This document shows positions 3,985 to 63,703 of a stretch of DNA of 64,000 nucleotides, piece after piece. Source of the DNA: Clostridium sp. (GTDB taxonomy: Bacteria > Bacillota > Clostridia > Lachnospirales > Lachnospiraceae). The notes under the pieces are model-generated. The model was not told the origin of the DNA. It made no database searches and worked only from the letters and a program-made list of their open reading frames with translations. The translations under genes were made by a program, and so were the position numbers. The stretch lies in the NCBI GenBank assembly GCA_023667695.1, contig JAMOZY010000010.1:1-64000 (forward strand), in the 5' to 3' direction. Every line of letters starts with the position of its first letter. Within the stretch, counting starts at the first letter, position 1.

Positions 3985-4371
3985 ATGAATTATGATGAAG
4001 CTCACAATTATTTATATAATGAAATTAGCTTTGATAATACATATATTATGTTGGAATTATTAGCTGATGACAATATGATTGAAGGATTAAAACTTATAAA
4101 AAATTTAACATTTTGTGATGATAATGCAGCAAAACTATTGTGGAGTGATTTAAAGTGTGATTTTGGTGCAAGAGAGAACAATCCAATTATTCAACAAAGA
4201 GAAGAAAACGAAAAACTTAGAAAGGAAAATATAAATACATATATACCCAAATGCCCAACCTGCGGTTCCATTAATTTAGAAAGGATTGGCTTTTTTGAAA
4301 CATATCTTGATATAAGTTGTGGAACGAATACTGCCACTTTCCGATGTGAAAACTGTGGATATAGGTGGTAA
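3985..4371 (+). CDS. Small zinc-ribbon protein A
   Basis: 128 residues, ATG start with a weak GAGG-type site. The N-terminal two thirds are acidic and helical. The C-terminus is a zinc ribbon: CPTCGS, about 30 residues, then CENCGYRW. The last 45 residues are almost the same as in the protein at 6184-6534 while the N-termini differ, so the ribbon and downstream sequence belong to a repeated block. It is transcribed away from the orphan tape-measure module at 2764-3906 and ends at a bidirectional terminator. The pairing of each module with one such gene is striking. Possible roles are transcriptional control or an immunity-like partner, but nothing in the sequence decides this. Confidence 0.7.
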   Translation: MNYDEAHNYLYNEISFDNTYIMLELLADDNMIEGLKLIKNLTFCDDNAAKLLWSDLKCDFGARENNPIIQQREENEKLRKENINTYIPKCPTCGSINLERIGFFETYLDISCGTNTATFRCENCGYRW

Positions 4372-6152: not shown

Positions 6153-6183
6153 TTAATAAAAATAAAATTTGAGGTGCGAGAAT

Positions 6184-6534
6184 ATGACCAAAAAGGAAGT
6201 TCAAGATATATTGATTGCTGTTGATGTTGATTGTAAATCAGTAGACCCTATTATAATGGAAGGTGGAAATTATGAAAAATCAGCCAATTATATTATGGAA
6301 GTAACCGGTTGTGATAAAGAAATGGCGATGGAAATAGCATATGAAATTTATCCGCCAGAAGACTATGAAAGGGATATGGCTGAAGCTGCCAAAGCGAGAG
6401 CCAGAATGCCCAAATGTCCAACCTGCGGTTCCATTTTTTTAGAAAGGGTCGGCTTTTTTGAAACATATTTTGATATAAGTCATGGAACGAATACTGCTAC
6501 TTTCCGATGTAAAAACTGTGGATATAGGTGGTAA
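6184..6534 (+). CDS. Small zinc-ribbon protein B
   Basis: 116 residues from ATG 6184 (GAGGTG seven bases upstream; an in-frame GTG at 6169 is the alternative). The N-terminus is acidic, with a short helical domain that looks like a UBA/TS-N style fold (EVTGCDKEMAMEIAYEIYP), and differs from protein A. The C-terminal zinc ribbon (CPTCGS…CKNCGYRW) is nearly identical to protein A. It is divergent from the deleted tape-measure module at 5472-6152 and convergent with a minus-strand exon fragment, separated by a terminator. Function unknown. The constant ribbon with variable N-terminus mirrors the cassette structure of the tape-measure modules. Confidence 0.7.
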   Translation: MTKKEVQDILIAVDVDCKSVDPIIMEGGNYEKSANYIMEVTGCDKEMAMEIAYEIYPPEDYERDMAEAAKARARMPKCPTCGSIFLERVGFFETYFDISHGTNTATFRCKNCGYRW

Positions 6535-38238: not shown

Positions 38239-39036
38239 ATGGGAAAAATCATTGCAGTTGTGAATCAGAAGGGCGGTGTGGGAAAGACCACTACCACCCT
38301 GAACCTGGGCTATGCCCTGGAAGAAGCGGGAAAGAAGGTATTGTTGATTGACTTTGACCCCCAAAGCTCTTTAACGGTATGTATGGGCTATGACGATACG
38401 GACATTCTGCCATGCACCATAGCCACGCTGATGCAGCGAGTCATGGAGGACATGGATTTGCCGGAGGATGATTCCTATATCTATCATTCCTTATCCAGTC
38501 CAGGAATCGCACTGGACTTTATTCCCTGCAGCATGGAGCTGTCAGCAGTGGATGTCAGTCTGGTAAATGCTGTCTGCCGGGAAAGTATCTTAAAGGGAAT
38601 CCTGAGTGGTCTGGCAGATGCGTATGATTATATTATCATCGACTGTTCCCCATCTCTTGGAATGCTTACCATTAATGCACTGGTAGCAGCACAGGCAGTC
38701 ATTATTCCGGTGACACCGGAGTATTTATCCGCCAAAGGCCTGGAAATCCTGTTGAAGAATATACTTCGGGTCAAGAAGAAAATCAATCCGGAGCTGGAAA
38801 TCGAAGGCATTCTGTTCACCATGTTCCGGGAACGGATGCGTCTCACCCAGACCGTAGAGGACATTATCTATCATACCTATGGAGAAGCAGTTCCAATTTA
38901 TGAAACTAAGATTCCATGTTCCATTAAGGTAGGAGAATCTAATCTCCAGAGCAAGTCGATTCTCCAGTATGCAAAGCATAATAAAGTGTCTTTGGCATAT
39001 AAGGCATTGGCAGAGGAGGTGGAGCGGCATGAGTAG
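38239..39036 (+). CDS. parA: ParA partition ATPase
   Basis: 265 residues. Deviant Walker A KGGVGKTTTTLNLG at about 11-24, Walker A-prime VLLIDFDPQSSL and Walker B YIIIDCSPSLG are all clear. ParA moves ParB-bound DNA; on conjugative elements it supports maintenance of the excised circular form. AAAGAGG before ATG 38239. The stop overlaps the parB start by eight bases. Confidence 0.95.
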   Translation: MGKIIAVVNQKGGVGKTTTTLNLGYALEEAGKKVLLIDFDPQSSLTVCMGYDDTDILPCTIATLMQRVMEDMDLPEDDSYIYHSLSSPGIALDFIPCSMELSAVDVSLVNAVCRESILKGILSGLADAYDYIIIDCSPSLGMLTINALVAAQAVIIPVTPEYLSAKGLEILLKNILRVKKKINPELEIEGILFTMFRERMRLTQTVEDIIYHTYGEAVPIYETKIPCSIKVGESNLQSKSILQYAKHNKVSLAYKALAEEVERHE

Positions 39037-40060
39037 TCTGAGAACAAACCGGAAGTTAATCAGTCTGGATGATATGTTTGGAAATACAGGCGAGGATAGC
39101 ACCTTGGGAGCAGCTGGCATACCGGAAGGTGGGAAACCGGGAAAGGCGGCTGCACCCATGTCCCTTGCCATAACCAAGCTTTATCCCAAAAAGAACCATA
39201 AGTTCCAGGTCAACCTGGGGAAGAAGAATGATGACCTCTTGCAGTCTATCCGGGACTTCGGTGTTCTGGAGCCGGTCATTGTCCGTCCCATGGAGCATCC
39301 GGTAGAGACGGATGCCTATGAGATTCTTGCCGGTCACCGTAGAACCGCTATGGCAAAGGAGGCGGGACTGACGGAAATTCCTGTAGTGATTAAGAGGGGG
39401 CTTTCAGAAACCGAGGCGGATTTAATCGAGACGGAAACCAATCTGCTGCAGCGTTCCTGGGAAGATATGAGCCACAGCGAGCGAGCAGAGGTACTATATG
39501 CCCATTATCATGCAGTAAACCAGCAGGGTGTCCGAACCGGCTTTTTAGAGGAAATTAATGCAGAAATTAAAAGCATTGCAAAGCCAGTAAATTCAATGGC
39601 GGAAGAGGGTTTGTCCCTAATAGGGACAAAAGGTAATGTAAGAGAATCCGGAGAGGCATATGAGCTGTCAAAAAATACAGTGGCAAGGTACTTAAGAATC
39701 CATACTCTGACCAGTGAATTAAAGGACCGGATGGATTTGGATGAGATTGCCTTATATGCAGGTGTTGAAATATCTTATCTGACTCCGGAGCATCAGGACC
39801 TGCTGGCTACCCTGTTGGATGCTTATAAGCTGGATATCCAGAAGGCAAAGGGCTTACGGACATTGGAAATGCAGGGAAAGCTGCAGGAGGACAGCATGAA
39901 AGAAATCCTGGCCGGAAAAAAGATGAAAAAGCCGGGACGGCCAAAGGCGGTCAGGATTAATCCGAATATCATAAACCGGTATTTTGAGGCAGGCACAAAG
40001 CAGAAAGAGATTGAGGAAACCATTGAGGCAGCACTGGAAGCGTATTTTAAAGGTAGGTGA
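39029..40060 (+). CDS. parB: ParB-like partition protein
   Basis: 343 residues from ATG 39029 (GGAGG nearby, overlap with parA). The ParB/Srx nuclease-like fold shows IRDFGVLEPVIVRP, ILAGHRRTAMAKEAGL and the ETNLLQRSWEDMSHSERAEVL stretch. A helix-turn-helix follows (YELSKNTVARYLRIHTL). A basic stretch AGKKMKKPGRPKAV lies near the C-terminus. A palindrome inside the gene (39610-39630) and the 16-bp palindromes elsewhere are candidate binding sites. Confidence 0.93.
   Translation: MSSLRTNRKLISLDDMFGNTGEDSTLGAAGIPEGGKPGKAAAPMSLAITKLYPKKNHKFQVNLGKKNDDLLQSIRDFGVLEPVIVRPMEHPVETDAYEILAGHRRTAMAKEAGLTEIPVVIKRGLSETEADLIETETNLLQRSWEDMSHSERAEVLYAHYHAVNQQGVRTGFLEEINAEIKSIAKPVNSMAEEGLSLIGTKGNVRESGEAYELSKNTVARYLRIHTLTSELKDRMDLDEIALYAGVEISYLTPEHQDLLATLLDAYKLDIQKAKGLRTLEMQGKLQEDSMKEILAGKKMKKPGRPKAVRINPNIINRYFEAGTKQKEIEETIEAALEAYFKGR
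39610..39630. promoter_or_regulatory. Perfect palindrome inside parB
   Basis: TTTGTCCCTA, one base, TAGGGACAAA. Ten-base arms are unlikely by chance within a coding sequence. It codes for part of EEGLSLIGTK. It may be a parS site, an operator or a coincidence of codon choice. Confidence 0.3.
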
Positions 40061-41637: not shown

Positions 41638-41786
41638 CAGAAGAAAAATCCGTAACGGAAATCATCGAGGAAGTAAAAGGACAGATGTGTGACCGGTATT
41701 GTAAATATCCGTCACAGTATACATCAGAAGAATGGGAGGAAGTTTTTGAAGAAATCTGTAGCGATTGTCCTCTGGACCGCTTATAG
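41634..41786 (+). CDS. Small four-cysteine protein
   Basis: 50 residues (MTEEKSVTEIIEEVKGQMCD…) from ATG 41634, with GGGAGGAG seven bases upstream, overlapping the end of the preceding gene by four bases. Cysteines fall in two CxxxC/CxxC pairs (CDRYC, CSDC), suggesting one zinc ion. Such small proteins often sit in these elements. Function unknown. Confidence 0.6.
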   Translation: MTEEKSVTEIIEEVKGQMCDRYCKYPSQYTSEEWEEVFEEICSDCPLDRL

Positions 41787-41836
41787 GGAGTGATGAAATT
41801 TCGTTAATTGCAATTACAGGAATTGGAGGTAAGCAG

Positions 41837-43402
41837 ATGGAGAAATATAGAATTACGGACCGACAGGAAAAAATACTACAGCATCTGAGTGACAACTTTA
41901 TGCAAGGCAGTATTGAAACAAAGATGATAGGAAATGATGTGGTTAAGGTGACGGAGCAAGCCGGAGAAAATCGGTATTTTTCTATTGACAGCGATGGAAG
42001 CATAACAGAGTCGGATACGTTAAGCATGGAGGAACTGCATCAGGATATGAATGAATATGTCTTTGAACATATGGATTCTGTATATCAGCCTCAGGTAGAG
42101 CATGACAGACAGACCCTGGTAATCAGTGCTTATGGTGGTCCCGGTTCCGGCAAGACGGTTGCCTGTATGGATATCTGCCAGCAGTTAAAGAAGCGGGGCT
42201 ACAATGCAGAGTATGTTTCTGAGGTAGCAAAGGATTATGTCTATGATGAAAACTACGACATGCTGGACGGAACACCGGAGCATCAGTATGAAATGCTTCA
42301 GGAGCAGCTAAAACGGGTAGACCGTTACATGGGCAAGGTAGATTTTGTGGTTACGGATTCACCGGTACTTTTGAACGGGATTTATAACCAACAGCTAACT
42401 CCGGAATATGAGCAGATGCTGCTGCGTCTGCATGAGCAGTACAATAATTTTGTCTTTGTGGTAAACCGGGATGCCGGACATTTCCAGGAGGAAGGACGGA
42501 TACATGATTTAGAAGAAAGCATGGAAAAGGATGCCCAGATTAGAGACATGCTGGATGAACATCAGATTTACTATGGCACCTATGAACACCGGACCGTTGG
42601 AAAAATCGTGGACAACAGCATTCATACCTTGAATCGTATCCGGCAGGAGCATGATTACAGCCTGCTTCGGGAATTTATTTCTGAGCATTACTATAAAGAT
42701 GCAATCGAAATTGAAGTTGCCAGCGACCGGATGTTTCAGTTAAAGGACCAGACGGGTGACAGTATTACCGTAGGCATTGAAGCAGGCCAGGTAAAGCTTC
42801 CGGAAGGATATGAGCCGACAAGCGGAATCCAGAACCTACAGCAAAGCCATTTTATTCATCCGGATACGGAAAAGATGACGCAGGTGCTGGGACAGTTTGA
42901 AACAGACTGTCAGGTGCCGGAGCATCTGAGACTGACCTGTCAATCCGCAAATGGAAGCAGTTACGAGCTGGTTCCCGGGGAAACGGAGGAGGAGATAATA
43001 CACCGCTACTGTCAGCAGGATTTAATGAAGCATGATTTGTGGAATATGAAATTCTGGGAGAGAAAGGGTGTTCCGGCAGCCCATCCAAGCCTGGAGGGAT
43101 ATACCTGGAATCACTTTGGCAGTGGATATGGATGCCTTCTGAATCCGGAGCAGGAAGCAGTAGCCCGTTACGGCAATTATCCGAAAATGGAAGGTGATAT
43201 GAAAGGCTGGAATGATGAAGTACAGAAATTCATGAGGGGAGCAGAGGCAAAAGAAGCGGAATCTATACAGGAACAAAAGCAGGAGGGAACACTGACAAAA
43301 GGGCAGTCCCCTTCTTTTTTTCAGGAAGAGGAGCTGATAAGTGAAGAAGAGCTGATGCTGTTGGAAGCTCAGGCAGAACAGGGCATGGTAATGGAACGAT
43401 AG
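41837..43402 (+). CDS. AAA ATPase/kinase-like ICE protein with shared C-terminal tail
   Basis: 521 residues from ATG 41837 behind GGAGGTAAG. The centre has a P-loop: SAYGGPGSGKTVACMD near residues 98-113, then VVTDSPVLLNG as Walker B; this resembles AAA_28/NadR-kinase-type ATPases. A later domain contains AHPSLEGYTWNHFGSGYGCLLNPEQ. The last 14 residues (LLEAQAEQGMVMER) are shared with the proteins ending at 44190 and 45595. Function is not known. The position in the early region and the common tail suggest a protein delivered to the recipient; this is inference. Confidence 0.6.
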   Translation: MEKYRITDRQEKILQHLSDNFMQGSIETKMIGNDVVKVTEQAGENRYFSIDSDGSITESDTLSMEELHQDMNEYVFEHMDSVYQPQVEHDRQTLVISAYGGPGSGKTVACMDICQQLKKRGYNAEYVSEVAKDYVYDENYDMLDGTPEHQYEMLQEQLKRVDRYMGKVDFVVTDSPVLLNGIYNQQLTPEYEQMLLRLHEQYNNFVFVVNRDAGHFQEEGRIHDLEESMEKDAQIRDMLDEHQIYYGTYEHRTVGKIVDNSIHTLNRIRQEHDYSLLREFISEHYYKDAIEIEVASDRMFQLKDQTGDSITVGIEAGQVKLPEGYEPTSGIQNLQQSHFIHPDTEKMTQVLGQFETDCQVPEHLRLTCQSANGSSYELVPGETEEEIIHRYCQQDLMKHDLWNMKFWERKGVPAAHPSLEGYTWNHFGSGYGCLLNPEQEAVARYGNYPKMEGDMKGWNDEVQKFMRGAEAKEAESIQEQKQEGTLTKGQSPSFFQEEELISEEELMLLEAQAEQGMVMER

Positions 43403-43413
43403 GGAGGAATATT

Positions 43414-44190
43414 ATGAGACGATTATCAGCAGTAACACTGGCATGGAGAAATTTTCTGTATGCAAATCCGGCAGGATATTGTAATAATCCGGAGGATTTG
43501 TGTGCGAGGGTATCCTTGATTCAGGATGAAAGAGAGGCCATTCTGAATCAGATGCTAAAGGATGAACCGAACATGAATGAAATACAGATGTCAAAAGAAG
43601 AGATTGCATTTCAGATTGAAAATCTGGAGGAGATGGCAGATGAGTTTGCCTGTTATGCAGATTGCTATCATTTTTATGAAACAACGAAAGAATTGCAACA
43701 TATGGTTTTGGATAATCTGCTTAACAATGGAACAGAAAGTGAATTTTACATCGTGGCAGATGAATGGAAAACATATGCTGAAAATGCAGATATGTTTGTA
43801 CGAGATATGAAAGAGCAATTTGGATATGTTGTTAATGGTAAGGAACAAAGGTTGTTGCGCCAGCTAATGGATTTGCAAATCCGGCCGGAAGAAAGAGAAA
43901 ACCTACAGACTGCGAAAAAACAGTTAGAAGAAAGAATTCAGCAGTCTATAGAGAAATATTTTTTTAGTGAAGAGAGCCAAACAAAAAACATTCCTGTTGC
44001 TGAAGATAATCATGAATTGGCTGAAGAAATAATTTGGCAGATGACAGAGGAAATGACGAGGAACGTTAAAAAAGAACAGGAATATCTTCCGGCTGCAGAA
44101 TCCGATATGGAGTTAGCAGAAGAAATGAGTGAAGAAGAGGCAATGCTGTTGGAAGCCCAGGCAGACCAAGGCATGGCAATGGAACGATAA
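43414..44190 (+). CDS. Unknown helical ICE protein with shared C-terminal tail
   Basis: 258 residues, ATG 43414 with GGGAGG. Acidic and almost wholly helical, no motif. It ends MLLEAQADQGMAMER, matching the tails of the genes before and behind. Between it and the next gene lies a short hairpin terminator. Unknown function. Confidence 0.6.
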   Translation: MRRLSAVTLAWRNFLYANPAGYCNNPEDLCARVSLIQDEREAILNQMLKDEPNMNEIQMSKEEIAFQIENLEEMADEFACYADCYHFYETTKELQHMVLDNLLNNGTESEFYIVADEWKTYAENADMFVRDMKEQFGYVVNGKEQRLLRQLMDLQIRPEERENLQTAKKQLEERIQQSIEKYFFSEESQTKNIPVAEDNHELAEEIIWQMTEEMTRNVKKEQEYLPAAESDMELAEEMSEEEAMLLEAQADQGMAMER

Positions 44191-44215
44191 TAAAATAGAA
44201 ATATGTGTTAACCAG

Positions 44216-44241
44216 TGTGGAGAATTTTCTCCACATTTTTT
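44216..44241 (+). terminator. Terminator between tail-sharing genes
   Basis: TGTGGAG, AATTTT loop, CTCCACA, then TTTTTT. A very regular intrinsic terminator. The next gene starts 16 bases later, so readthrough control of ArdC expression is possible. Confidence 0.8.
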
Positions 44242-44256
44242 AATGGAGGAAAGATT

Positions 44257-44391
44257 ATGGATATGGCGATAGTACAGGAAAATAGAAACATGGACGAATG
44301 GTGCAGAGCATTGGGAATTATCCGATATGAAGAGCCGGTGGTTGAGGAAGATGATGCAGAGGGGGAATACGAAGATGTCCGGCAGTTATGA
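44257..44391 (+). CDS. Small acidic protein upstream of ardC-like gene
   Basis: 44 residues (MDMAIVQENRNMDEWCRAL…) from ATG 44257 with TGGAGGA upstream. Acidic C-terminus (VEEDDAEGEYEDV). It overlaps the ardC-like gene by 17 bases. It may work as a leader for coupled translation or as a DNA mimic; neither is shown. Confidence 0.5.
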   Translation: MDMAIVQENRNMDEWCRALGIIRYEEPVVEEDDAEGEYEDVRQL

Positions 44392-45595
44392 TAAAGTGAT
44401 GGAAGAACGTAAGAAGCTGGTGGAAAAGATTATTGAAAATATGAAGCTGGGTTATGTGCTGCCAAAGCCGGATTGGAATCAGGCAGCATTTCCGGATACC
44501 AGAATCTGTAATCCGGTATCTGGAGCAAGATATCATGGCTCGAATCTCATCCGGCTTTATATCACGGGCTTGGAGAAAGGTTATACAGATGGACGCTGGA
44601 TGACATATAAGCAGGCACAGTCAGAGGGCTGGCAGGTGCGAAAAGGAGAGCAAGGTGTTCGATGTGAAAAATACATTTTCACAAGGCAAATAGAAGAAGA
44701 GAATCCGGATACTGGAGAGCTGGAAAAGAAGACGGTTCCTTTATCAAAACCAATGGTAAATACCTTTGTGGTATTCAATGCCCGGCAGATTGAAGGAATT
44801 CCGGAGCGTGTGAATGAAATATTAGAGCCATTAAAGCCAGATGAAATACTTGATATGGCTGAATTATTTCAGGAATCCAGCAGTTGTCCAATCAGAGAAA
44901 CCAATGAAGGAAAGGCCTACTATTCACCAGGAAAGGATGAAATTGTGCTGCCAAATCGGAATGCATTTTTAGATACCCAATCCTTTCTGGCAACCCAGTT
45001 ACATGAGATGGTACATTCGACCGGACATCCAGACCGGTTAAATCGTCCATTAACAGGTTTGTTTGGAAGTCCGGAATATGCAATGGAAGAACTGAGAGCA
45101 GAGCTTGGTTCTTTTTTTATTCAAAATGATTTGAATCTGCATTTTGATGCACAGCATTTTAATAGTCACACACAGTATTTAGAATCCTGGATCGGAGCAT
45201 TGGAAAAAGATCCGAATGAATTGTTCCGGGCCATTGCGGATGCACAGAAAGCGAGTGATTATCTGGAGGAACGATATGAATTGCTAAGAGAGCAGAAACT
45301 GGAAGCAAAGCAGGAGCAATTATTGAGTAAACAGCAGGAGGCTGTTGTCAGGATGGCGGTGAAGCATGAGGCAAAGCAGCCGGGAAGCGGAAGGGAGCAT
45401 CTGGAACGTTGGATTGAAAAAGATATTCTGAAATGTCAGGAATTAAAGCTTCCGGTACGTTATGAGGAGATAAACTATATGCGGGAATCCTTTGAGCAAT
45501 TAGCAACCGATTTGTTGCCGGCACTGGATGAGGAACAACTACAGCTTATGCTATTAGAAGCTCAAGCTGAGCAGGGGATGATATTAGAAATGTAA
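44375..45595 (+). CDS. ArdC-like antirestriction protein with zincin domain
   Basis: 406 residues from ATG 44375, supported by AGGGGG upstream; an earlier in-frame ATG (44327) has no such site. The N-terminal domain (CNPVSGARYHGSNLIRLYI… WMTYKQAQSEGWQVRKGEQG) is the ssDNA-binding ArdC_N type. A zinc metallopeptidase motif follows: ATQLHEMVHSTGH, with EELRAELGSFF as the third-ligand region. ArdC of plasmid pSa binds ssDNA and protects it after transfer, and is reported to be exported with the T-strand. The C-terminus has the shared tail MLLEAQAEQGMILEM. A role in shielding the incoming strand is likely. Confidence 0.85.
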   Translation: MSGSYDKVMEERKKLVEKIIENMKLGYVLPKPDWNQAAFPDTRICNPVSGARYHGSNLIRLYITGLEKGYTDGRWMTYKQAQSEGWQVRKGEQGVRCEKYIFTRQIEEENPDTGELEKKTVPLSKPMVNTFVVFNARQIEGIPERVNEILEPLKPDEILDMAELFQESSSCPIRETNEGKAYYSPGKDEIVLPNRNAFLDTQSFLATQLHEMVHSTGHPDRLNRPLTGLFGSPEYAMEELRAELGSFFIQNDLNLHFDAQHFNSHTQYLESWIGALEKDPNELFRAIADAQKASDYLEERYELLREQKLEAKQEQLLSKQQEAVVRMAVKHEAKQPGSGREHLERWIEKDILKCQELKLPVRYEEINYMRESFEQLATDLLPALDEEQLQLMLLEAQAEQGMILEM

Positions 45596-45655: not shown

Positions 45656-46609
45656 ATGGGCTATCAGTATTTTACAGAAGAACAGATTAATTATGCGAAT
45701 CATGTCAATATCGTAGAATATGCCAGGCGTCAGGGCTATCCGGTCAAAGAATACCACCGGGGCTACTGGAAGATACCGGGCTATGGGGGCTTGCTGATTG
45801 AGCCGGATAAATGGTACTGGGAGGCAGAGCATCGGGGCGGCGGGCCGATTCAGTTTGTTATGCTGCTACAGAAGCTGTCCTGGGCAGAGGCGGTAAGAGA
45901 ATTATTGAAGGAATCAAATCCTGATTTCCTGTACCACCCAGGAGAAGCTCCGGTGCTGGCGCACAATAAATCAAAGGATAAATCAATATTCCGGCTTCCG
46001 GCCAAGAATACCACATTTGAGCATATATTCGCTTATTTAATCAAATCCCGGAAGTTAGACCAAGGTCTGGTGCAGCAGTTAGTAAAGGATAAGAAGCTGT
46101 ATGAGGATGTAAATGAGAACTGTGTTTTTGTAGGTCTTGATAAAGAAGGAACTGCCCGGTTTGCATCCATGCGGGGAACGAAAACAAAGCGGCCATATAA
46201 GGGGGATGCAGCCGGTTCGGATAAACGGTATGCCTTTTCCTGTCCGGGCAGTACGGATACGGTGTACATATTTGAAGCTGCCATTGACCTGTTGTCCTAT
46301 CAGACCTTATTAAAGCAATCCGGCATGGAAATCATGGACCATTATATTACCCTGGCAGGCATATCCATAGCGGCTCTGGAGCGGTATCTGGTGGATTATC
46401 CGGATATCCGGAAGCTGGTGGTTTGTACAGATCAGGACGAAGCCGGAGAGGAAGCCTTCCGGCAGATTTATAAAGTGTATGCCGGGGAGTATGAGGTCCG
46501 GCGGCAGTCACCAAAGCCCTATAAGGATTTCAATGATTACCTGGTGCGTAAGGAATTCCAGCGGTTTTTGGAAGAGCAGGGGCTGATGGCTGCCACAGGG
46601 ACATCTTAG
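45656..46609 (+). CDS. DUF3991/TOPRIM primase-like protein
   Basis: 317 residues, GAGGTGAG before ATG 45656. The N-terminal part (VNIVEYARRQGYPVKEYHRGYWKIPGYGGLLI) resembles the CHC2-like start of DnaG-type proteins without its cysteines. A TOPRIM fold follows: VYIFEAAIDLLSY and LVVCTDQDEAGEEAFRQIY with DxD. Such proteins accompany relaxases and are thought to prime the complementary strand in the recipient. It lies just before the oriT-like region and mobC. Confidence 0.8.
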   Translation: MGYQYFTEEQINYANHVNIVEYARRQGYPVKEYHRGYWKIPGYGGLLIEPDKWYWEAEHRGGGPIQFVMLLQKLSWAEAVRELLKESNPDFLYHPGEAPVLAHNKSKDKSIFRLPAKNTTFEHIFAYLIKSRKLDQGLVQQLVKDKKLYEDVNENCVFVGLDKEGTARFASMRGTKTKRPYKGDAAGSDKRYAFSCPGSTDTVYIFEAAIDLLSYQTLLKQSGMEIMDHYITLAGISIAALERYLVDYPDIRKLVVCTDQDEAGEEAFRQIYKVYAGEYEVRRQSPKPYKDFNDYLVRKEFQRFLEEQGLMAATGTS

Positions 46610-46761: not shown

Positions 46762-47247
46762 ATCGCAAAGACGGAAGACATTCATTTCCGGGTAAGACCG
46801 GAGCTGAAATCACAGATTGAGGCAGCAGCCAGCGAGGCAGGAGAATCCCTGACCGGATACTGTGAACGGGTGCTGGCAGCGTCTGCCGGATATGTGAAGC
46901 CGGTGACGCAGGAAACAGACCGGATAAAGGAGCCAAGGGAACGTACCGGGCGAAAGGATCAGTCCATTACCTTCCGGCTATCGAAAAAGGATAAGAAAGC
47001 AATCGAAGAGAAAGCCAGGCTGTGCCGGTTATCGGTGGGCGAATATCTGCTCCGGACAGTATTGGAGGATTCCGTCGTCGTTGTTGTAGAGGGCAAAGAA
47101 ATCCTCCATCAGTTATCCAAGCTTGGTACCAATCTGAACCAGTTGACGCTTCTGGCACACCAGGGGAAGATTACCTGTCCGGAGCTGGAGCCGACCAACC
47201 GTACCTTGAAAAAACTGTTACGGCAGCTGACCCGGTCACTGAAATGA
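46762..47247 (+). CDS. mobC: MobC-like relaxosome accessory protein, apparent ATC start
   Basis: 161 residues if started at ATC 46762. GGGAGG is placed seven bases in front of this codon and the homologous N-terminus (AKTEDIHFRVRPELKSQIEAAASEAG, a ribbon-helix-helix) begins right there; an in-frame stop lies at 46735-46737 and no ATG, GTG or TTG is found in between. The shorter alternative (GTG 46870) would cut that domain. A second ribbon-helix-helix (SITFRLSKKDKKAIEEKA) and the MobC-type end LHQLSKLGTNLNQLTLLAHQGKI follow. It helps the relaxase open DNA at oriT. Confidence 0.8.
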   Translation: MAKTEDIHFRVRPELKSQIEAAASEAGESLTGYCERVLAASAGYVKPVTQETDRIKEPRERTGRKDQSITFRLSKKDKKAIEEKARLCRLSVGEYLLRTVLEDSVVVVVEGKEILHQLSKLGTNLNQLTLLAHQGKITCPELEPTNRTLKKLLRQLTRSLK

Positions 47248-47257
47248 GGTGGAGCAT

Positions 47258-48283
47258 ATGGCAATCGTAGAATTTGCAAATGGAGAAGCATACTCCAAGC
47301 AGGGGAAATATCATGGTTATAAGACCCATGCTTCCATGCAGCGGTTAATTGACTATATCACCAATCTGGAAAAGACCAGGGTGGATTTAATGAAAGGACT
47401 GCATTGTTCACCTCAGAATGCATATGATGAGTTTCTTTTGAATAAGACAATCTGGAACAAGACAGAAAATAATGACCGACGGATGGTGATTCATTTCATT
47501 CAGAGCTTTCCCCCGGAGGAAGATATAACACCGGAGATGGCATCGGAGATTGCAGGTAAGCTTTTGGAGCATAAATTCTTCCATGGCTTTCAGGCGGTTT
47601 ATGCCACGCATCTGGACACGGATCATATCCATACTCATTTTGTCATTGATGCCTGTAATAAGGAAACCGGGGAACAGTGGCATTTCAGTAAGGAGGACCT
47701 GCAGGAAATTAAAGATTATTCGGACCAGCTCTGTCGGGAATACCAGTTATCCATTTGTCAGAAGAGGGAGAATTATACGGCTCCCCACCGGGGAAAGAAT
47801 GAATCGGAGGTCATAAAGCAGGGTGGGAGCTGGAAGGAGGAAATCCGGATTGCTGCCACCATATGCGCCCAGTCGGCAGTTAGTAAAGCGGATTTCATCC
47901 GGCAGATGAAGGAGCTTGGCTTTGGGGTGACCTGGAAGGACGAACACAAATACATTGTATTCCATGACAGACAGGGACACCGGGTAAGACATCACCGGCT
48001 GGAACCAGTAGAGGCATTTACCAAGGAGGCGCTGCTAAAACAATTTGAACTGAATCGGCAGGTATTAGAAATCGAGCGGGCAGAAGCAGCGGCAGACCGG
48101 ATGGAGGGCCTGGAAGCATACCAGGGAATCCGCAGCGCATTATTCGTAGCAAAGAATCTGATACAGGCGGCAGAACAGCCCTATCCGCTGCAGAATCATG
48201 ATGCCTTCAGCCGGACAGCTACCAAGGCAGCCATGGAGGAATTCGTGGCAGAACAGAAGAAAGGAAGAGGATATGAAAGATAA
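47258..48283 (+). CDS. Relaxase (MobA/VirD2-like)
   Basis: 341 residues from ATG 47258 (GAGGTGGAG upstream). The histidine triad HLDTDHIHTHFVIDA lies at about 122-136. The first part (HASMQRLIDYITNLEKT) is typical of Relaxase-family (Pfam 03432) proteins of clostridial elements. A tyrosine near the N-terminus (candidates in EAYSKQGKYHGYKTH) should attack the nick. It starts transfer by nicking oriT and staying bound to the 5' end. Its end overlaps the virD4 start by 11 bases. Confidence 0.92.
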   Translation: MAIVEFANGEAYSKQGKYHGYKTHASMQRLIDYITNLEKTRVDLMKGLHCSPQNAYDEFLLNKTIWNKTENNDRRMVIHFIQSFPPEEDITPEMASEIAGKLLEHKFFHGFQAVYATHLDTDHIHTHFVIDACNKETGEQWHFSKEDLQEIKDYSDQLCREYQLSICQKRENYTAPHRGKNESEVIKQGGSWKEEIRIAATICAQSAVSKADFIRQMKELGFGVTWKDEHKYIVFHDRQGHRVRHHRLEPVEAFTKEALLKQFELNRQVLEIERAEAAADRMEGLEAYQGIRSALFVAKNLIQAAEQPYPLQNHDAFSRTATKAAMEEFVAEQKKGRGYER

Positions 48284-50096
48284 GAAAACCAAAGTGCTTA
48301 CATGGATTGCATTATTGCTTGTCTGTGTGGTACTGAATACAATCCTGCTGCATAAGCTTCCCATCCGGGAAGGCAGTTATCTAAAGGTGGGATGCTGTAT
48401 GCTGGTACTGGAGGTCATGGGTATCTGGTATCTGATGATGGATGATAAGCAGTATAAGGCAGACATGATTCCAATCACACCGGATATTAAAACTCCGGCA
48501 CCGGCAGGGCAGGGACAGCATGGGACCGCCAGATGGCTGAAGGAGAAGGAATATGACCGGGTATTTTCTTCCTGTGTCATTGATGGAGATACAACGGAAA
48601 TTGACCAGGGTGGTCTGGTCATCGGCAAGAAGGATTTGAAAAACGGAGGCGAGAAGGTCTATTACATCAAAGACTTTATCCATTCCCTGACCGTTGGCTC
48701 CACCCGTTCTGGCAAGACCCGGCATGAGGTACTGGAAACTATCGGGTTATGCGGGCTGGCAGGCGAGAGCATGGTGATTACGGATATCAAGGGTGAGCTA
48801 TATGATTATACGGCTCCTTTTTTACGGGAGCAGGGGTATGGGGTTTATGTCATGGATTATGATGAACCCGTGCGTTCCGATGCCAATAATCCGTTGCAGC
48901 CGGTGATTGACCGGATTGATGCAGAGGATGTTCCGGCTGCCATAGATGCCTGCTGGGATATCGTGTCTCAGTTGGTCGGGGAGGCGAAGGGAGAGCGTAT
49001 CTGGAATGATGGTGAATGCTCGGCTATTGCCGGAGCAATCATGGCGGTCTGCTATGATAACCGGATGCCGGACCGGCATAAATACCGGAATATGACCAAT
49101 GTATATCATTTTCTGGTGGAAATGTGTACACCCGTTGGCAAGCTTCTGCCCCTTAATTATTACCGGGCAGGTCTGCCGGATCAGCATCCCTGTAAGGCAG
49201 TGCTGGCAGTGGCCAATATTGCACCCAGCCGGACCAGAGGCTCTTTTTATACCTCAGCACTGCTGACCCTTCGGTTGTTTTCCAATCCTTATCTTTACAG
49301 TATCACAAGGGAATCCGGATATGAACTGGCGGACTTTGGAAGGCAGAAGACGGCATTATTCATTATCCTGCCGGAGGACCGGCAGACCTATCATGCAGTG
49401 GCGACCCTGTTCGTAACACAGATATACAGCCGGCTGTCCCGTCTGGCAAAGGAGGAGGGTGGTGTCCTGCCGGTTCCCGTGAATTTCATCTGTGATGAAT
49501 TCGGTAACTTTGCTAAGATACCGAACTTTATCCAGATGCTGACGGTTGCTGGCGGCAAACAGATTCGGTGGCATCTGTTCCTTCAGGACTATGCCCAGTT
49601 GGATGATGTCTATGGCAGGGAGGCCGCAAAAACCATCCGGGGCAACTGTGAGATTAAGGTATATCTGCGGTCGGCTGACCCGGATACCAGGGATATTATT
49701 TCAAAGGACCTGGGGAAATACACCACAAAGGGATATTCCTTAAGCTACAACAGGCATCGGGCAGAGAATTCATCCTCCAATACCAATCTGGTAGGCAGGG
49801 AGCTGCTGACCGGAGATGAGGTAGGAAGGATTCAACGGCCCTATTCCCTTATCATGTCATCGGCTTATCCGGCCATTCTGTATGCGCCGGACTTAAGTCA
49901 GTGGTCCTTCAATGAACGGTTTGGCATGGGGGATAAGGAACATAATGCAAGGCTGCGGCAACAGCGGCATGAACAGCGGCCGGTTCATCCGGTGGAGCAT
50001 GTGGCTTTGTGGGGTATCTGGAAGAACTACCAGAGGAAAGCACAAAATGAACTGAAAAAGCAAATAGAAGCAGGATTAGGAGGAATGGAAGAATGA
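48273..50096 (+). CDS. virD4: VirD4-type coupling protein
   Basis: 607 residues from ATG 48273 (GGAAGAGGA). Two N-terminal membrane segments (about 9-27, 37-54), Walker A GSTRSGKTRHEV (about 146-157), Walker B NFICDEFGNFA and a C-terminal motif PYSLIMSSAYPAILYAPDLSQW. A hexameric ATPase that hands the relaxase-DNA complex and protein substrates to the mating channel. Its neighbours form the transfer operon. Confidence 0.95.
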   Translation: MKDKKTKVLTWIALLLVCVVLNTILLHKLPIREGSYLKVGCCMLVLEVMGIWYLMMDDKQYKADMIPITPDIKTPAPAGQGQHGTARWLKEKEYDRVFSSCVIDGDTTEIDQGGLVIGKKDLKNGGEKVYYIKDFIHSLTVGSTRSGKTRHEVLETIGLCGLAGESMVITDIKGELYDYTAPFLREQGYGVYVMDYDEPVRSDANNPLQPVIDRIDAEDVPAAIDACWDIVSQLVGEAKGERIWNDGECSAIAGAIMAVCYDNRMPDRHKYRNMTNVYHFLVEMCTPVGKLLPLNYYRAGLPDQHPCKAVLAVANIAPSRTRGSFYTSALLTLRLFSNPYLYSITRESGYELADFGRQKTALFIILPEDRQTYHAVATLFVTQIYSRLSRLAKEEGGVLPVPVNFICDEFGNFAKIPNFIQMLTVAGGKQIRWHLFLQDYAQLDDVYGREAAKTIRGNCEIKVYLRSADPDTRDIISKDLGKYTTKGYSLSYNRHRAENSSSNTNLVGRELLTGDEVGRIQRPYSLIMSSAYPAILYAPDLSQWSFNERFGMGDKEHNARLRQQRHEQRPVHPVEHVALWGIWKNYQRKAQNELKKQIEAGLGGMEE

Positions 50097-50401: not shown

Positions 50402-51262
50402 ATGTGGCAGATAGTGCAGGACTTTTTATGGAATCTGGTCTTTGGAGATCAGGGACTGAACTGGTTTTATCAATACAATAATTTGAGAACCTTGTTTTTC
50501 GCTCTGGATATTCAGCTTTTTTTTGATAATGTTGGAATCAGCATGAAGGCAGTCTGTAATACCATATACATTTATTCCTTTTATCTGATCATCTTAAAGT
50601 TTGTGAAAAAGGTATTGGATATCTATGCCCTTCAGACGGACGGAGATGCTGGGACGGATGTGTTTGTCGTAATTGCAAATTTCTGTAAGGCTATGGTGAT
50701 TGCTATGTCCTTTACAACCATATGGAACTGGCTGCTGGAAATCGTGATTGATTTTAGTATGGATTTGATAAATACCATGAATCTGGGAGGCGGTACTACT
50801 TTGATGAATGATATAAAGGCAATCGGGGAAGCTTCGCCGGATACACCACTATTTATAATCATTCCGATTTTTGTGGGACTGAACAATATTCTTCTTTTGT
50901 GTCAGCTAAAAAATGCTTTGGAGCTATGGATACTCCGGCTTGGTGTACCCCTTGCCTGCTGTGGGCTTCTGGATGCGGACCAGGGTGTTTATAAGCAGTA
51001 TATGCGCTCCCTGTTCAAGGCGGTGCTGACCATTGTTATACAGGTGTTCCTAATGAATCTGGCACTTTACCTGATGACATTTATCCGGTTGGATGATTTG
51101 GCAAATTCTGTCCTGCTGGGAGCATATGCAATTATGACAGTCGTAGTGGCATTTGCCACACCGAAGCTGCTTAGTGAATTCTTGGTACCAAAGCAGGGCG
51201 GTGGCGGTAAGGTCATGCAGGCGGTCTATATGGGTTCCTTCCTGTTAAGGGGTGTGATGTAG
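50402..51262 (+). CDS. VirB6/TrbL-like membrane protein
   Basis: 286 residues, ATG 50402 next to GGGGTGATGGG. Five or more membrane segments, including IAMSFTTIWNWLLEIVIDF and AVLTIVIQVFLMNLALYLM. This is the pattern of polytopic VirB6/TrbL components that line the inner-membrane pore. Tight operon on both sides. Confidence 0.75.
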   Translation: MWQIVQDFLWNLVFGDQGLNWFYQYNNLRTLFFALDIQLFFDNVGISMKAVCNTIYIYSFYLIILKFVKKVLDIYALQTDGDAGTDVFVVIANFCKAMVIAMSFTTIWNWLLEIVIDFSMDLINTMNLGGGTTLMNDIKAIGEASPDTPLFIIIPIFVGLNNILLLCQLKNALELWILRLGVPLACCGLLDADQGVYKQYMRSLFKAVLTIVIQVFLMNLALYLMTFIRLDDLANSVLLGAYAIMTVVVAFATPKLLSEFLVPKQGGGGKVMQAVYMGSFLLRGVM

Positions 51263-53712: not shown

Positions 53713-53752
53713 ATGATTAATAATTATATTAGCAATAATAGAAGAGGTGGAT

Positions 53753-54607
53753 ATGATGATTAATTTAATAATGGTGTATGCTGATAATACATGGGATCAA
53801 TCTCCTGCTTTTATTAATCAGGAGCGCTGTCTTACGGAATATATTCTTCCAGAATATAAAGAAAAATACTCAGATTTTTCAATGGAATCTATTGAATTTT
53901 TAAAACAACTGCCTTGTATATTCGCATATGAAAGGCAAAAAAAGAAAGATGCTGTGATTGGATGTATCAAAAATATTGAAGTACAGCAAACCAATGTTCG
54001 TATTGACTATGAAATAGGTGGAGAGAGCATTGCCTTTGACAATTTTATTCAATTATCCGGTTTTCTTGATATGGGTACATGGGAATGGAATAGAACTCAT
54101 TGGACGATAAAAAAGACTAATATAGATGATTTAAAACCATATTTTAAGAATAAATGTATAAATAGGCCTAAAGTATTTGTCTCTTATAGTTGGAATCCAC
54201 CGTCTAATCAACAAAATGTTTTTGAATTAATAAAAAGGTTAGAGCAAGATGAAATAAATGTTATATATGATAGGAAAGATTTATATCCTGGACAAGATAT
54301 GAATTATTTTATGGAAAGTGTACTTGTATCAGATGAAATAGATGCAGTAATTATTATTTGTAATAGAGATTATGCTGAGAAAGCCAATAATCGTAGTGGT
54401 GGGGTAGGTTATGAATCAGAGTTGATTTTAACAGAGATTAAGAGTAAGCCATTACAAAGAAAATACATTCCAGTTGTGATTGATTATAATGAGAATGGCG
54501 AATTACCACCTCCGAATTTTTTGAAGTCTCGATATTGTATAGATTTGTCAAAAGATACTGGATATGATGATTTGTTAAACGCAATTAGAGAGTTGAAAGA
54601 AAAATAG
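53753..54607 (+). CDS. TIR/SEFIR-domain protein, defence candidate
   Basis: 284 residues from ATG 53753 (AGAGG five bases before; the next ATG is adjacent). The C-terminal half starts with PKVFVSYSWNPPSNQQNVFELIKRL, the first strand and helix of TIR/SEFIR domains, and continues with VIYDRKDLYPGQDMNYFMESVL, AVIIICNRDYAEKA and GVGYESELILTEI, where the glutamate after GVGYE- is the likely NAD-cleaving residue. The N-terminal 140 residues are a separate beta-rich domain of unknown type. Low GC compared with the transfer genes on both sides points to recent gain. It is probably a defence effector, co-transcribed with the membrane gene 43 bases downstream. Confidence 0.8.
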   Translation: MMINLIMVYADNTWDQSPAFINQERCLTEYILPEYKEKYSDFSMESIEFLKQLPCIFAYERQKKKDAVIGCIKNIEVQQTNVRIDYEIGGESIAFDNFIQLSGFLDMGTWEWNRTHWTIKKTNIDDLKPYFKNKCINRPKVFVSYSWNPPSNQQNVFELIKRLEQDEINVIYDRKDLYPGQDMNYFMESVLVSDEIDAVIIICNRDYAEKANNRSGGVGYESELILTEIKSKPLQRKYIPVVIDYNENGELPPPNFLKSRYCIDLSKDTGYDDLLNAIRELKEK

Positions 54608-54650: not shown

Positions 54651-55169
54651 ATGGTTATTGCACAACTGATAGTGGATATTTTTACTTGTGTTGGTATTAT
54701 AATTGCATTATTTGAATTTCATTTACTTAAGAAATCGACACTTGCAGATTGTGAAAGAACACAAAAGCAGGCAACAATGGATCTTTATATTGAAATTAAA
54801 GAAGAATTGTATATAACTAATCAAGAAATATATAAACGTTTTAAAAGAAATATAGTAAATTATGAAGATATTGAGAATAATGAAGAGATGCTTGCAATGA
54901 TAAAAAGATATCTTAATATAATGGAGTTAATGGCAGCCGGTATAAATACAGGTATTTATAATATTGATGTGTTTGATAGACTATATGGCGATGTTACAGT
55001 TCGGTTAGCAGATCAGTTACAAGATTATATACATAATCGAAGAAAAAGGGTAAAAGCACCAGAACTATATCTTGATTTTGAGTTGCTTGTTGTGAAATTG
55101 AAAAAAATGCATGAAAAAAGAGGACAGTTATTAAACCCAGATGCTTCAATTAAGCATAAGATTTTATAA
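54651..55169 (+). CDS. DUF4760-like membrane protein, partner of the TIR gene
   Basis: 172 residues, AAGGAG before ATG 54651. One N-terminal membrane helix (VIAQLIVDIFTCVGIIIALFEF), then a helical cytoplasmic domain with EEMLAMIKRYLNIMELMAAGINTGIYNIDVFDRLYG, as in DUF4760 proteins. As AT-rich as the TIR gene and directly behind it. It could sense or execute at the membrane in an abortive-infection type system. The pairing has not been tied by me to any named system. Confidence 0.6.
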   Translation: MVIAQLIVDIFTCVGIIIALFEFHLLKKSTLADCERTQKQATMDLYIEIKEELYITNQEIYKRFKRNIVNYEDIENNEEMLAMIKRYLNIMELMAAGINTGIYNIDVFDRLYGDVTVRLADQLQDYIHNRRKRVKAPELYLDFELLVVKLKKMHEKRGQLLNPDASIKHKIL

Positions 55170-56882: not shown

Positions 56883-57064
56883 GAAATAGCACAATAGAAT
56901 AAAGTATGAGAAAAGGAAGTCAGACCGGCTTCCTTTTTTCGTTGCCACGCATCCGTAAGAAGCTGCCGGTAGCAGGTTCTATAGGCGGGAAAATTCAGGG
57001 AATACCCATAGGGGTGTCCCCTTTTATGATAGATATACAAAATTTAAGGAGAGTGACTTTAGAA

Positions 57065-61223: not shown

Positions 61224-61892
61224 ATGAAGATAGTGTTTTTATTGGTCATGGCACTGGTGGCTGCAGGGTTTTACCTGTACAGCACGTACCGGGGCAAAAA
61301 AACAAAGGATGGGAGTAGCCGGAAGAATGTTCAGGAATTCATGAATGTAGTGGATATTGAGAATTCATTTATTTATACAAAGGATAATTATCTGATTGGA
61401 TTCTTGCAGATTTCCGGCAGAAAGACGGATTTGCTGAGCGGACGGGAAAAGGCAGCGCTGACCCAGCAGATGACAGCAGAGGCAGCGACGATATCCTCTG
61501 CCTGGCAGATTCTTGCCGTATCCCAGCCGGAGGATAATTCAGCGCTGATTGGCCAGTATCAGGAAATGATGGATACCACCAATCCCATCCGGAAGAAGCT
61601 GCTGCGGGAAGCCATCCGGTATCAGAATGGACTGCTGTTATCCGGAGAGAACATGGAGCGGCAGTTTTACTTAAAGCTTTGGGAATATCAGAAGGACGGG
61701 GCGGAGAAGGAACTGATGGAGAAGCTGAATCAGTTTGCCAAGTGCTTTGATATCAGCGGATATTCCTGTGAGATTGTAAACCGGGAGGAAGTGATCCGCC
61801 TCTGCAACCTGGTACATAATCCATCGGCAGTCTTATATGAAGGGGAAGAGATTCAGACCGGGCTGCCCAGACTGGAAGGAGGAACAGCATGA
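61224..61892 (+). CDS. Separate VirB4 N-terminal domain protein
   Basis: 222 residues from ATG 61224 (AAAGGAG). One membrane helix (VFLLVMALVAAGFYLYSTY), then a soluble part starting NVQEFMNVVDIENSFIYTKDNYLIGFLQI, the usual beginning of VirB4/TrbE-like proteins. The following gene starts four bases before its stop and supplies the ATPase part. So virB4 is split in two coupled genes. Confidence 0.7.
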   Translation: MKIVFLLVMALVAAGFYLYSTYRGKKTKDGSSRKNVQEFMNVVDIENSFIYTKDNYLIGFLQISGRKTDLLSGREKAALTQQMTAEAATISSAWQILAVSQPEDNSALIGQYQEMMDTTNPIRKKLLREAIRYQNGLLLSGENMERQFYLKLWEYQKDGAEKELMEKLNQFAKCFDISGYSCEIVNREEVIRLCNLVHNPSAVLYEGEEIQTGLPRLEGGTA

Positions 61893-63703
61893 AAAAGGAC
61901 AAGCTGCAGCCAAACGCTGCATTATTAAATATCATATCGCCCATGAATCTGGACTATCAGCATACATCCATGCAGATTGGCGAGAATAAGGCGAAGGGCT
62001 ATGGAATCATACGATATGCATCAGATAATCCCTATGGCTGGTTGTCAAAGCTGACCAACCTGCCCAGCTCCATTGTGTCCATTACCTATGATCCTCTGGA
62101 TGCGGAAGAAATGATTGGGATTATGGACAGCAATATCAGTGCGGCCAAGAAGCGTATCATGGATGCAAAGAAGGCATCCGAAGAGACCAGGGCAGAGAAA
62201 GCCATCCGGCACAGTGTCAAGCTGCTGGATGAAATTGATGATAAGAATGAATCCATTGGACTGATGTCTACGGTAATCATGCCACTGTCTGGTGAGGATG
62301 CATTTGAAAAGGCAGAGCGGAAGGCGAGGAGTACGGCCAAGAAGGCGGCCTGCAGGCTGCGCTGCATGACCAACATGCAGAAGGAGGTTTATCAGCAGAT
62401 ATCACCGGCCTATGTACCTTCTGAGCGTATCCGGGATATCGTGGGAAGGGTGACGCCGTTATCCACCCTGCTGGGAGGCTTTCCATTTTCCAAGTCCGGC
62501 TTAAATGACGGGGAAGGTTATTATCTGGCTAAGGATGATGCCGGCGGCATTATTACCATGAATCCCTGGAAGCGGTATGGGGACCGGACGAATTCCAACA
62601 TGGCATTCCTGGGCGGCTCCGGCGTGGGAAAGTCCACCAAGATGAAGGATTTGCTGACCGATGAATACATGATGGGAAGCAGGATTATTGTGATTGATCC
62701 GGAGGATGAATATAAGGAGCAATGCAGTATTTTCTCCGGGAACTGGCTGAATGCAGCCGGAGGAGCAAAGTGCAGGATTAATCCATTGCAGGTTCAGACC
62801 ATACCCCAGGAAGAAGGGGATGAGTATTACAGGGATGAAGGAAATGGTATGGGCGCCCTTGCCTTATACTTAAAGCATCTGGAAACCTTTTTCTCCCTGT
62901 ATCTGCCAAGCATGGATGATTACCTGTTATCTCATCTGAAAATGCTGCTGATTGATTTATATCAGTCCCATGGGATTACCTTTCAGACGGATGTAAGCAC
63001 CTTGAGGAATGAGGATTATCCGGTCATGGAAGAACTGGTCGGTCTGGCACAGGAGCGGGCAAAGGAATTTACGGAAGCAGGCAGTGTCGGGACAAATTAT
63101 TATGACAAGCTTGCCATTCTGCTTTGGGATGCAGCCTTTGGGGCGGATTCCTTTTTGTTTAACGGATATACCAGTATTCATACAGATAGTCAGTATATCT
63201 GTATTTCCACCTCCGGACTGACGGATTCTTCGGACCGGATTAAGCGGACTCAGTATTTCAATATCTTGACCTGGGCATGGAATGAGATTAGCCGGAACCG
63301 GCAGGAGCGGGTCATACTGGTGTGTGATGAAGCCTATCTGCTGGTGGACCCGGAGATTCCACAGTCATTAATTTTTCTTCGGAATGCCATGAAACGGGCC
63401 AGAAAGTATGAGGCGGCTATCTGGGTGATTACACAGAACATAGTGGATTTCCTAGGGGAAACGGTTAAGACCTATGGACAGGAGCTGTTGGATAATCCCA
63501 CCTATAAGGTGCTGATGGGAGCGGATGGTGCCAATCTGGAGAAGCTGGTGGAGCTGTACCGGCTGACGGAGCAGGAAATTACCATGCTGGAGGCAAAGCG
63601 CAGAGGGCAGGCAATCCTCATGCTGGGAGCCAGACGGATGAAGGTGAAATTCGATATCCCGGATTATAAATTTCAATACTTCGGAACGGCAGGTGGCAGG
63701 TGA
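61889..63703 (+). CDS. virB4: VirB4-type ATPase
   Basis: 604 residues. Walker A FLGGSGVGKSTKM at about 245, IIVIDPEDEYKE, Walker B VILVCDEAYLLVD and the C-terminal TQNIVDFLGE typical of VirB4/TraC. It powers assembly and DNA passage of the mating channel. It overlaps the gene before by four bases and the gene after by one base (TGATG). Confidence 0.95.
   Translation: MKKDKLQPNAALLNIISPMNLDYQHTSMQIGENKAKGYGIIRYASDNPYGWLSKLTNLPSSIVSITYDPLDAEEMIGIMDSNISAAKKRIMDAKKASEETRAEKAIRHSVKLLDEIDDKNESIGLMSTVIMPLSGEDAFEKAERKARSTAKKAACRLRCMTNMQKEVYQQISPAYVPSERIRDIVGRVTPLSTLLGGFPFSKSGLNDGEGYYLAKDDAGGIITMNPWKRYGDRTNSNMAFLGGSGVGKSTKMKDLLTDEYMMGSRIIVIDPEDEYKEQCSIFSGNWLNAAGGAKCRINPLQVQTIPQEEGDEYYRDEGNGMGALALYLKHLETFFSLYLPSMDDYLLSHLKMLLIDLYQSHGITFQTDVSTLRNEDYPVMEELVGLAQERAKEFTEAGSVGTNYYDKLAILLWDAAFGADSFLFNGYTSIHTDSQYICISTSGLTDSSDRIKRTQYFNILTWAWNEISRNRQERVILVCDEAYLLVDPEIPQSLIFLRNAMKRARKYEAAIWVITQNIVDFLGETVKTYGQELLDNPTYKVLMGADGANLEKLVELYRLTEQEITMLEAKRRGQAILMLGARRMKVKFDIPDYKFQYFGTAGGR

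Follow-up and report, generated by a model that had tools for sequence, protein, structure and literature searches.

Little is understood of how conjugative elements survive the first minutes inside a restricting recipient, or of which proteins Gram-positive elements send along with their DNA. A stretch of 64,000 nucleotides from Clostridium sp. (contig JAMOZY010000010.1, positions 1 to 64,000; hereafter the window) gives this question a concrete form: why do three consecutive proteins of one integrative and conjugative element (ICE), with unrelated bodies, share a common ending? A preliminary description of the locus had taken this tail for a possible type IV secretion signal. From sequence comparisons, we consider it probable that the tail is a short, interchangeable C-terminal signal for recruitment or translocation, that the coupling complex of the type IV secretion system (T4SS) encoded by the element recognizes it, and that its bearers are cargo delivered with the DNA; the tag most likely marks proteins sent into the recipient. 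The earlier proposal thus survives in modified form: it is supported by the sharing of tails, their match to the T4SS lineage and their presence on cargo and not on machinery, while the literal peptide is specific to this element.

The tails follow the consensus MLLEAQA[ED]QGM-x-x-E-[RM] and close three plus-strand open reading frames (ORFs) that end at 43402, 44190 and 45595. The first (41765..43402, start uncertain between a TTG at 41765 and an in-frame ATG at 41837) encodes an AAA_28 P-loop protein ending in ELMLLEAQAEQGMVMER (tail at 43349..43399, +). The second (43414..44190) encodes a 258-aa orphan ending in EAMLLEAQADQGMAMER (44137..44187, +), for which we found no Pfam or NCBIfam match and whose all-helical structure model (mean pLDDT 43.7) is of low confidence and not interpretable. 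The third (44327..45595) encodes an ArdC-like protein ending in QLMLLEAQAEQGMILEM (45542..45592, +). A domain search found the three bodies unrelated, and the back-translated tail core matches the window three times and none of 100 dinucleotide shuffles; ORF ends, domains and shuffles therefore bear out a common tail on three unrelated neighbors. With up to two mismatches, the core occurs at those three sites only in the whole 2.99 Mb genome. The preliminary description, correct on all three tails, missed a fourth, variant one outside the window, RLEAQAEAMEPEMEMVM, on a 618-aa protein (C1:73113-74969, or L084:13113-14969) that ends in EEQMRLEAQAEAMEPEMEMVM and whose gene lies directly 5' of a gene resembling a large recombinase. 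This protein also contains repeats around 'QMKQLRLGL..GLDV..Y'.

The assignment of the third protein to the ArdC family holds: it combines ArdcN with a zincin MPTase-PolyVal domain, with HExxH present as LHEMVHSTGH. Its structure model (mean pLDDT 79) reproduces the core of R388 ArdC (PDB 6sna), followed by predicted helices from about residue 297 to 421. The tail would form the last of these, at 402-421, with confidence dropping along it.

Could such endings be an accident at the DNA level, with gene ends copied between neighbors, or the Shine-Dalgarno sequence of the next gene read as Glu or Arg codons, and no peptide under selection? Copying does occur, as in a related element (L086) whose ArdA and AAA proteins share a terminal segment of about 60 aa at 65% identity. 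In the window, any two tails are 63-86% identical in DNA and separated by 2-7 synonymous codon changes, and tails 1 and 3, like tails 2 and 3, differ synonymously at 7 of 17 codons. The pooled ratio of nonsynonymous to synonymous differences (pN/pS) of tails was 0.22, 0.09 and 0.11 across the three elements examined, 0.22 being that of the window. Because the tail DNA has diverged synonymously at such ratios, we conclude that the tail peptide is under selection. The 3' flanks of the tailed genes are also unrelated to each other. Together with the gap controls given below, this makes an accident very unlikely.

The preliminary description would have given up its reading had the tail been found on many proteins outside conjugative elements. 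The exact 8-codon core had 48 matches in 84,980 GTDB species genomes plus IMG/VR, but no match fell at the end of a protein (at most 8 codons from the stop in a long frame), so that the literal tail does not generalize. An 11-residue tail pattern with up to three mismatches was found, among 397 genomes of the family, in its own genome only. Searches of IMG/VR for relatives with the 258-aa, AAA or coupling protein gave none, and a search of plasmids with the coupling protein gave one distant record. The search for the tail in related ICEs, which the preliminary description had suggested, therefore failed for the literal peptide, but it brought out other tails shared inside each related element. 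In G398 (L086), the AAA protein, the homologue of the orphan and ArdA end in EEMLLEAQ[AS]ASQGP[VI]LGM. In G188 (L087), four proteins (ArdC, ArdA, one with pentapeptide repeats and one with DUF4116) share the ending EEALEAAE[LV]QExxF[ED]MEM, of which two further proteins carry variants.

We defined lineage A by a coupling protein of the CD1115 family, 40-68% identical to that of the window. Counting a C-terminus as shared when non-homologous proteins reach a C-terminal similarity score of at least 36, we found such sharing in 6/20 loci of lineage A, 2/11 loci with another T4SS and 0/52 other loci; in these last, non-T4SS loci, none of 3944 protein pairs shared a C-terminus. Segment L090:8153-11022, from a different T4SS lineage, holds an ArdC homologue and an adjacent 399-aa protein that both terminate in EKLAEK[KH]SELG, a candidate for another shared tail. 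The literal peptide thus belongs to this element, and what generalizes is a short C-terminal code that varies with the lineage. In the literature searched, in which subscription journals are thinly covered, we came upon no description of such tails from Gram-positive ICEs.

In lineage A this code takes an acidic-hydrophobic form. The first set, of 14 elements, was gathered by relaxase similarity; same-strand genes upstream of the relaxase were counted as cargo and genes downstream as machinery. Cargo proteins end, for example, in DDWELEV, DDWEIEI and DDWEIEL (three proteins of L175), DEEMEL or EEWELEI. A motif of at least four acidic and at most one basic residue among the last ten, with a hydrophobic end, was present in 40/98 cargo proteins, 2/49 machinery proteins and 18/593 proteins of other loci, on the same set from which it had been chosen. 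In this set the last ten residues had a mean charge of -2.23, compared with -0.18 thirty residues upstream. Since the motif had been chosen on these loci, it was fixed and then tested on new elements found by their coupling protein, where it occurred in 13/77 cargo and 2/61 machinery proteins (p=0.012). Six of these new elements have a homologous relaxase, and there the counts were 10/20 and 2/37.

The tailed repertoire of lineage A comprises ArdA, ArdA-DUF3846, ArdC, RadC/JAB, Toprim primases, ParB, AAA_28, DUF5688, NT5C and a ToxN homologue, as well as SNF2-helicases with an N6-methylase (1570-2368 aa). Four relaxases have cargo-like ends: those of L218 and L219 (TEELDEMEF), L221 (WEHESEREL) and L228 (WETDWEI). 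The homologue of ToxN, the toxin of a type III toxin-antitoxin system, ends in NIDEDMEL, an acidic cargo motif (L230:5415-5954); a toxin or abortive-infection factor may thus be among the cargo.

A second coupling-protein lineage (lineage B, 24-26% identical to that of the window) shows the opposite chemistry. We had seen that ArdC, primases and further cargo of other T4SS elements have basic ends, often with a terminal Arg (post hoc, 28/87 against 56/528 in background loci). In a preset test on 14 new elements gathered by the L168 coupling protein, 59/96 cargo proteins and 0/31 machinery proteins ended in Arg (p=7e-11). Three cargo genes of L242 end in QPER, namely KKNQPER and KKQQPER (12149-13501) and KTQPER (7239), and lineage-B primase tails have charges of +1 to +5, with two at 0. 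The relaxases, excluded from cargo and counted afterwards, end in Arg in 11 of 14 cases. Because the relaxase is an obligate T4SS substrate, we see in this the strongest hint of a link to the export channel.

A terminal Arg is also where a Shine-Dalgarno sequence could leave its trace, and its rate in lineage B is indeed higher when the next gene lies within 20 nt (39/53) than when the next start is distant (20/43). The latter rate is nevertheless substantial, 24/59 of the terminal Arg codons are of the CGN type, and tightly packed machinery genes, by measured gap, show the acidic motif in 2/72 cases (lineage A) and a terminal Arg in 0/20 (lineage B). In lineage A, distance leaves the motif rate unchanged (29/63 for gaps of 20 nt or more to the next start, 21/55 otherwise). 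The Shine-Dalgarno sequence of the next gene does not explain the lineage-A motif, and possibly makes some contribution in lineage B.

What, then, determines the type of tail? The ArdC proteins of L088 and L093 are 67-68% identical to that of the window, yet they end in KCCSR or KKARCSR, whereas the ArdC of L087, only 56% identical, has an acidic tail. Among the AAA proteins, that of L086 (70% identical to that of the window) carries the tail of its own element, that of L093 (66% over the AAA domain) a basic end, and that of L230 (36%) ends in NEDMEI. Primase tails average a charge of about -3.3 in lineage A and +1 to +3 in other T4SS lineages (p=1.5e-4). Genome G398 holds two elements whose AAA domains are about 70% identical and whose tails read QGPVLGM and SNKRSPKR. 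Tail type tracks the T4SS lineage, not the protein body or the host.

These exchanges bear on a C-terminal degron, by which ClpXP or Lon of the host would limit the proteins in donor or recipient. The C-terminal position and the tagging of several unrelated proteins would suit it. However, two tail types on such similar AAA domains coexist in one host, so that the host is unlikely to determine the function, as it would for a protease tag, and tails vary with the T4SS lineage. An ssrA-type degron has a nonpolar end, unlike the acidic or -ER ends seen here, which are element-specific and have no further copy in their own genome. We regard a degron as scarcely credible. Degron, unselected copying of DNA and Shine-Dalgarno read-through are disfavored by tail exchanges, pN/pS and gap controls.

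The main rival is a docking tag without export, which would gather cargo on a partner in the donor or recipient, such as the relaxosome or a replication or partition complex, much as the tail of the single-stranded DNA-binding protein (SSB) does. Binding to a relaxosome hub could explain why relaxases of lineage B, and four of lineage A, carry the same signature, and ParB and primase are among the tailed proteins. Yet tail type follows the T4SS lineage, although homologous modules for replication and partition recur from lineage to lineage, and the cargo includes proteins of use only against recipient defenses (ArdA, ArdC and methylase-helicases). We therefore hold docking without export to be unlikely, though less so than the explanations above.

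The recruitment signal that we favor accords with the position of the tail, which forms the very end of several unrelated proteins in one T4SS-bearing element. The coupling complex, through the VirD4-like CD1115-family coupling protein or a partner, would bind the last 8-20 residues or so of unrelated proteins, which would be passed into the recipient with, or beside, the relaxase-DNA complex. There, ArdC, ArdA, methylase-helicases, primase, RadC and others may protect the incoming single strand and help establish it. The code would be an acidic-hydrophobic end in lineage A, lengthened into an element-specific helix in the subclade of the window, and in lineage B a basic end with -(E)R as its last residues.

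Several results weigh against this reading. The cargo rate in the new lineage-A elements, 17%, lies below our preset 20% although the motif is enriched, and in those with a non-homologous relaxase only 3/57 cargo proteins carry it. Proteins inside a lineage are kin, so per-protein p-values overstate independence; counted by families, the contrasts are 11/23 against 0/9 in lineage B (p=0.013) and 11/45 against 2/38 in lineage A (p=0.031), which leaves p-values of only 0.01-0.03. Tail similarity within elements exceeded all 5000 permutations overall, but without the subclade of the window 701 of 5000 reached the element-specificity value; we therefore take long, element-specific tails as a feature of that subclade and the short lineage-wide motif as the general rule. 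Many cargo proteins are untailed, among them ParA, ParB, a 526-aa protein and the primase of the window, and the relaxase of the window ends in GYER without the LLEAQA helix, a weak GYER/MER resemblance only. Finally, R388 ArdC does its work when the recipient expresses it, and supply by the donor proved unnecessary (PMC7213743), so that the transfer of pSa ArdC with the T-strand, to which the preliminary description had appealed, is weaker support than claimed.

With somewhat less assurance than for the signal itself, we lean towards a postal code in the Bacillota, in which each T4SS lineage would read its own C-terminal tag and a protein gaining the tag would join the injected anti-defense cargo. 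If this is true, the tag alone would suffice to foretell which proteins each element injects, and exchanging tags would divert cargo from one conjugation machine to another. Being readable from sequence, the tag yields candidates for testing: it points to hundreds of proteins that may be injected, including anti-restriction proteins, methylase-helicases, RadC, primases and unknown families, and marks proteins of unknown function as likely early anti-defense factors. On the receptor side we propose the coupling complex, and the natural tail-exchange pairs are ready specificity tests.

The rest of the element lies around the tailed genes. Upstream is a ParB-like gene (38969..40060, +), untailed here, whose homologues in L173, L176, L178 and L222 end acidic. 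Downstream follow, all on the plus strand, a DUF3991/Toprim primase (45656..46609), untailed here and tailed in most relatives, a NikA/MobC relaxosome accessory protein (46870..47247), a MobA/VirD2-type relaxase ending in KKGRGYER (47249..48283), and the CD1115-family (NCBIfam) coupling protein (48198..50096, likely start 48270), the candidate receptor of the tails. A TrbL-like channel protein (50402..51262, +) and a VirB4-like ATPase (61889..63703, +) are untailed machinery. In the transfer region, between TrbL and an adhesin, a TIR/SEFIR-domain protein (53747-54607, +) matches the PADLOC bSEFIR model (E 3e-53) and adjoins a DUF4760 protein (54651-55169); this bSEFIR-type gene is a defense gene carried by the ICE. 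The 995-aa protein at 56906-59893 (+), with a thioester domain (TED) and five SpaA prealbumin-fold domains, is probably a surface adhesin for mating-pair formation. Beside the end of the element, a 927-aa helicase-like protein on the minus strand (L084:9432-12215, C1:69432-72215) weakly matches the Mokosh MkoA/MkoC defense models. Elsewhere in the window, two small ORFs (3985-4371 and 6169-6534, +) are nearly identical in their last 30 residues (..TNTATFRC[EK]NCGYRW), the result of a local duplication that has nothing to do with the tails of the ICE.

Among known systems, the ArdC of R388/pSa (PDB 6sna, 6i89) shares the ArdcN and MPTase core with that of the window (E 2.8e-40), but at 305 aa it lacks the tail and the C-terminal helices, about 100 aa in all, that extend the protein of the window. 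The tailed set, with ArdC-MPTase, methylase-helicase, RadC, Toprim primase and ArdA, is the repertoire of the 'polyvalent' proteins, early-phase effectors predicted to enter with DNA through a T4SS (Iyer et al., 2017, PMC5512222); the parts of that account used here describe domains, phage versions included, and no shared C-terminal delivery tag. Conjugation of the F plasmid delivers ParA, ParB, SSB, PsiB and others to recipients, and C-terminal residues can suffice (PMC8406263, PMC11288057). Co-transfer of protein by a conjugation system is demonstrated for this 'conjutome', in accord with the reading proposed here; its signals, in the portions of these two sources considered, are diverse, internal or terminal, with no shared tail reported on a defined cargo set. 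Substrates of the Agrobacterium VirB/D4 system have a short C-terminal signal on unrelated proteins, of which positive charge is a feature (Vergunst et al., 2005, as cited in PMC8406263). Lineage-B tails are likewise basic and their relaxases bear the same signature, whereas lineage A is acidic-hydrophobic and the tails of the window carry a charge of -1 to -2 in place of a net positive C-terminus. As far as that citation extends, the tags here also differ in being putative signals on anti-defense and establishment proteins of Gram-positive ICEs that switch with the T4SS lineage. Lineage A resembles instead the E-block of the Legionella Dot/Icm system, a Glu-rich acidic C-terminal motif that is bound by DotM and brings many unrelated proteins to a coupling complex (PMC5802825). 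The machine is a different one, its effectors target the host cell where ours would be conjugation cargo, and the acidic residues here are joined by a hydrophobic very end (as in DDWELEV) or an LLEAQ helix; in Legionella, the interfaces of DotM are proposed to have co-evolved with tail type (PMC5802825).

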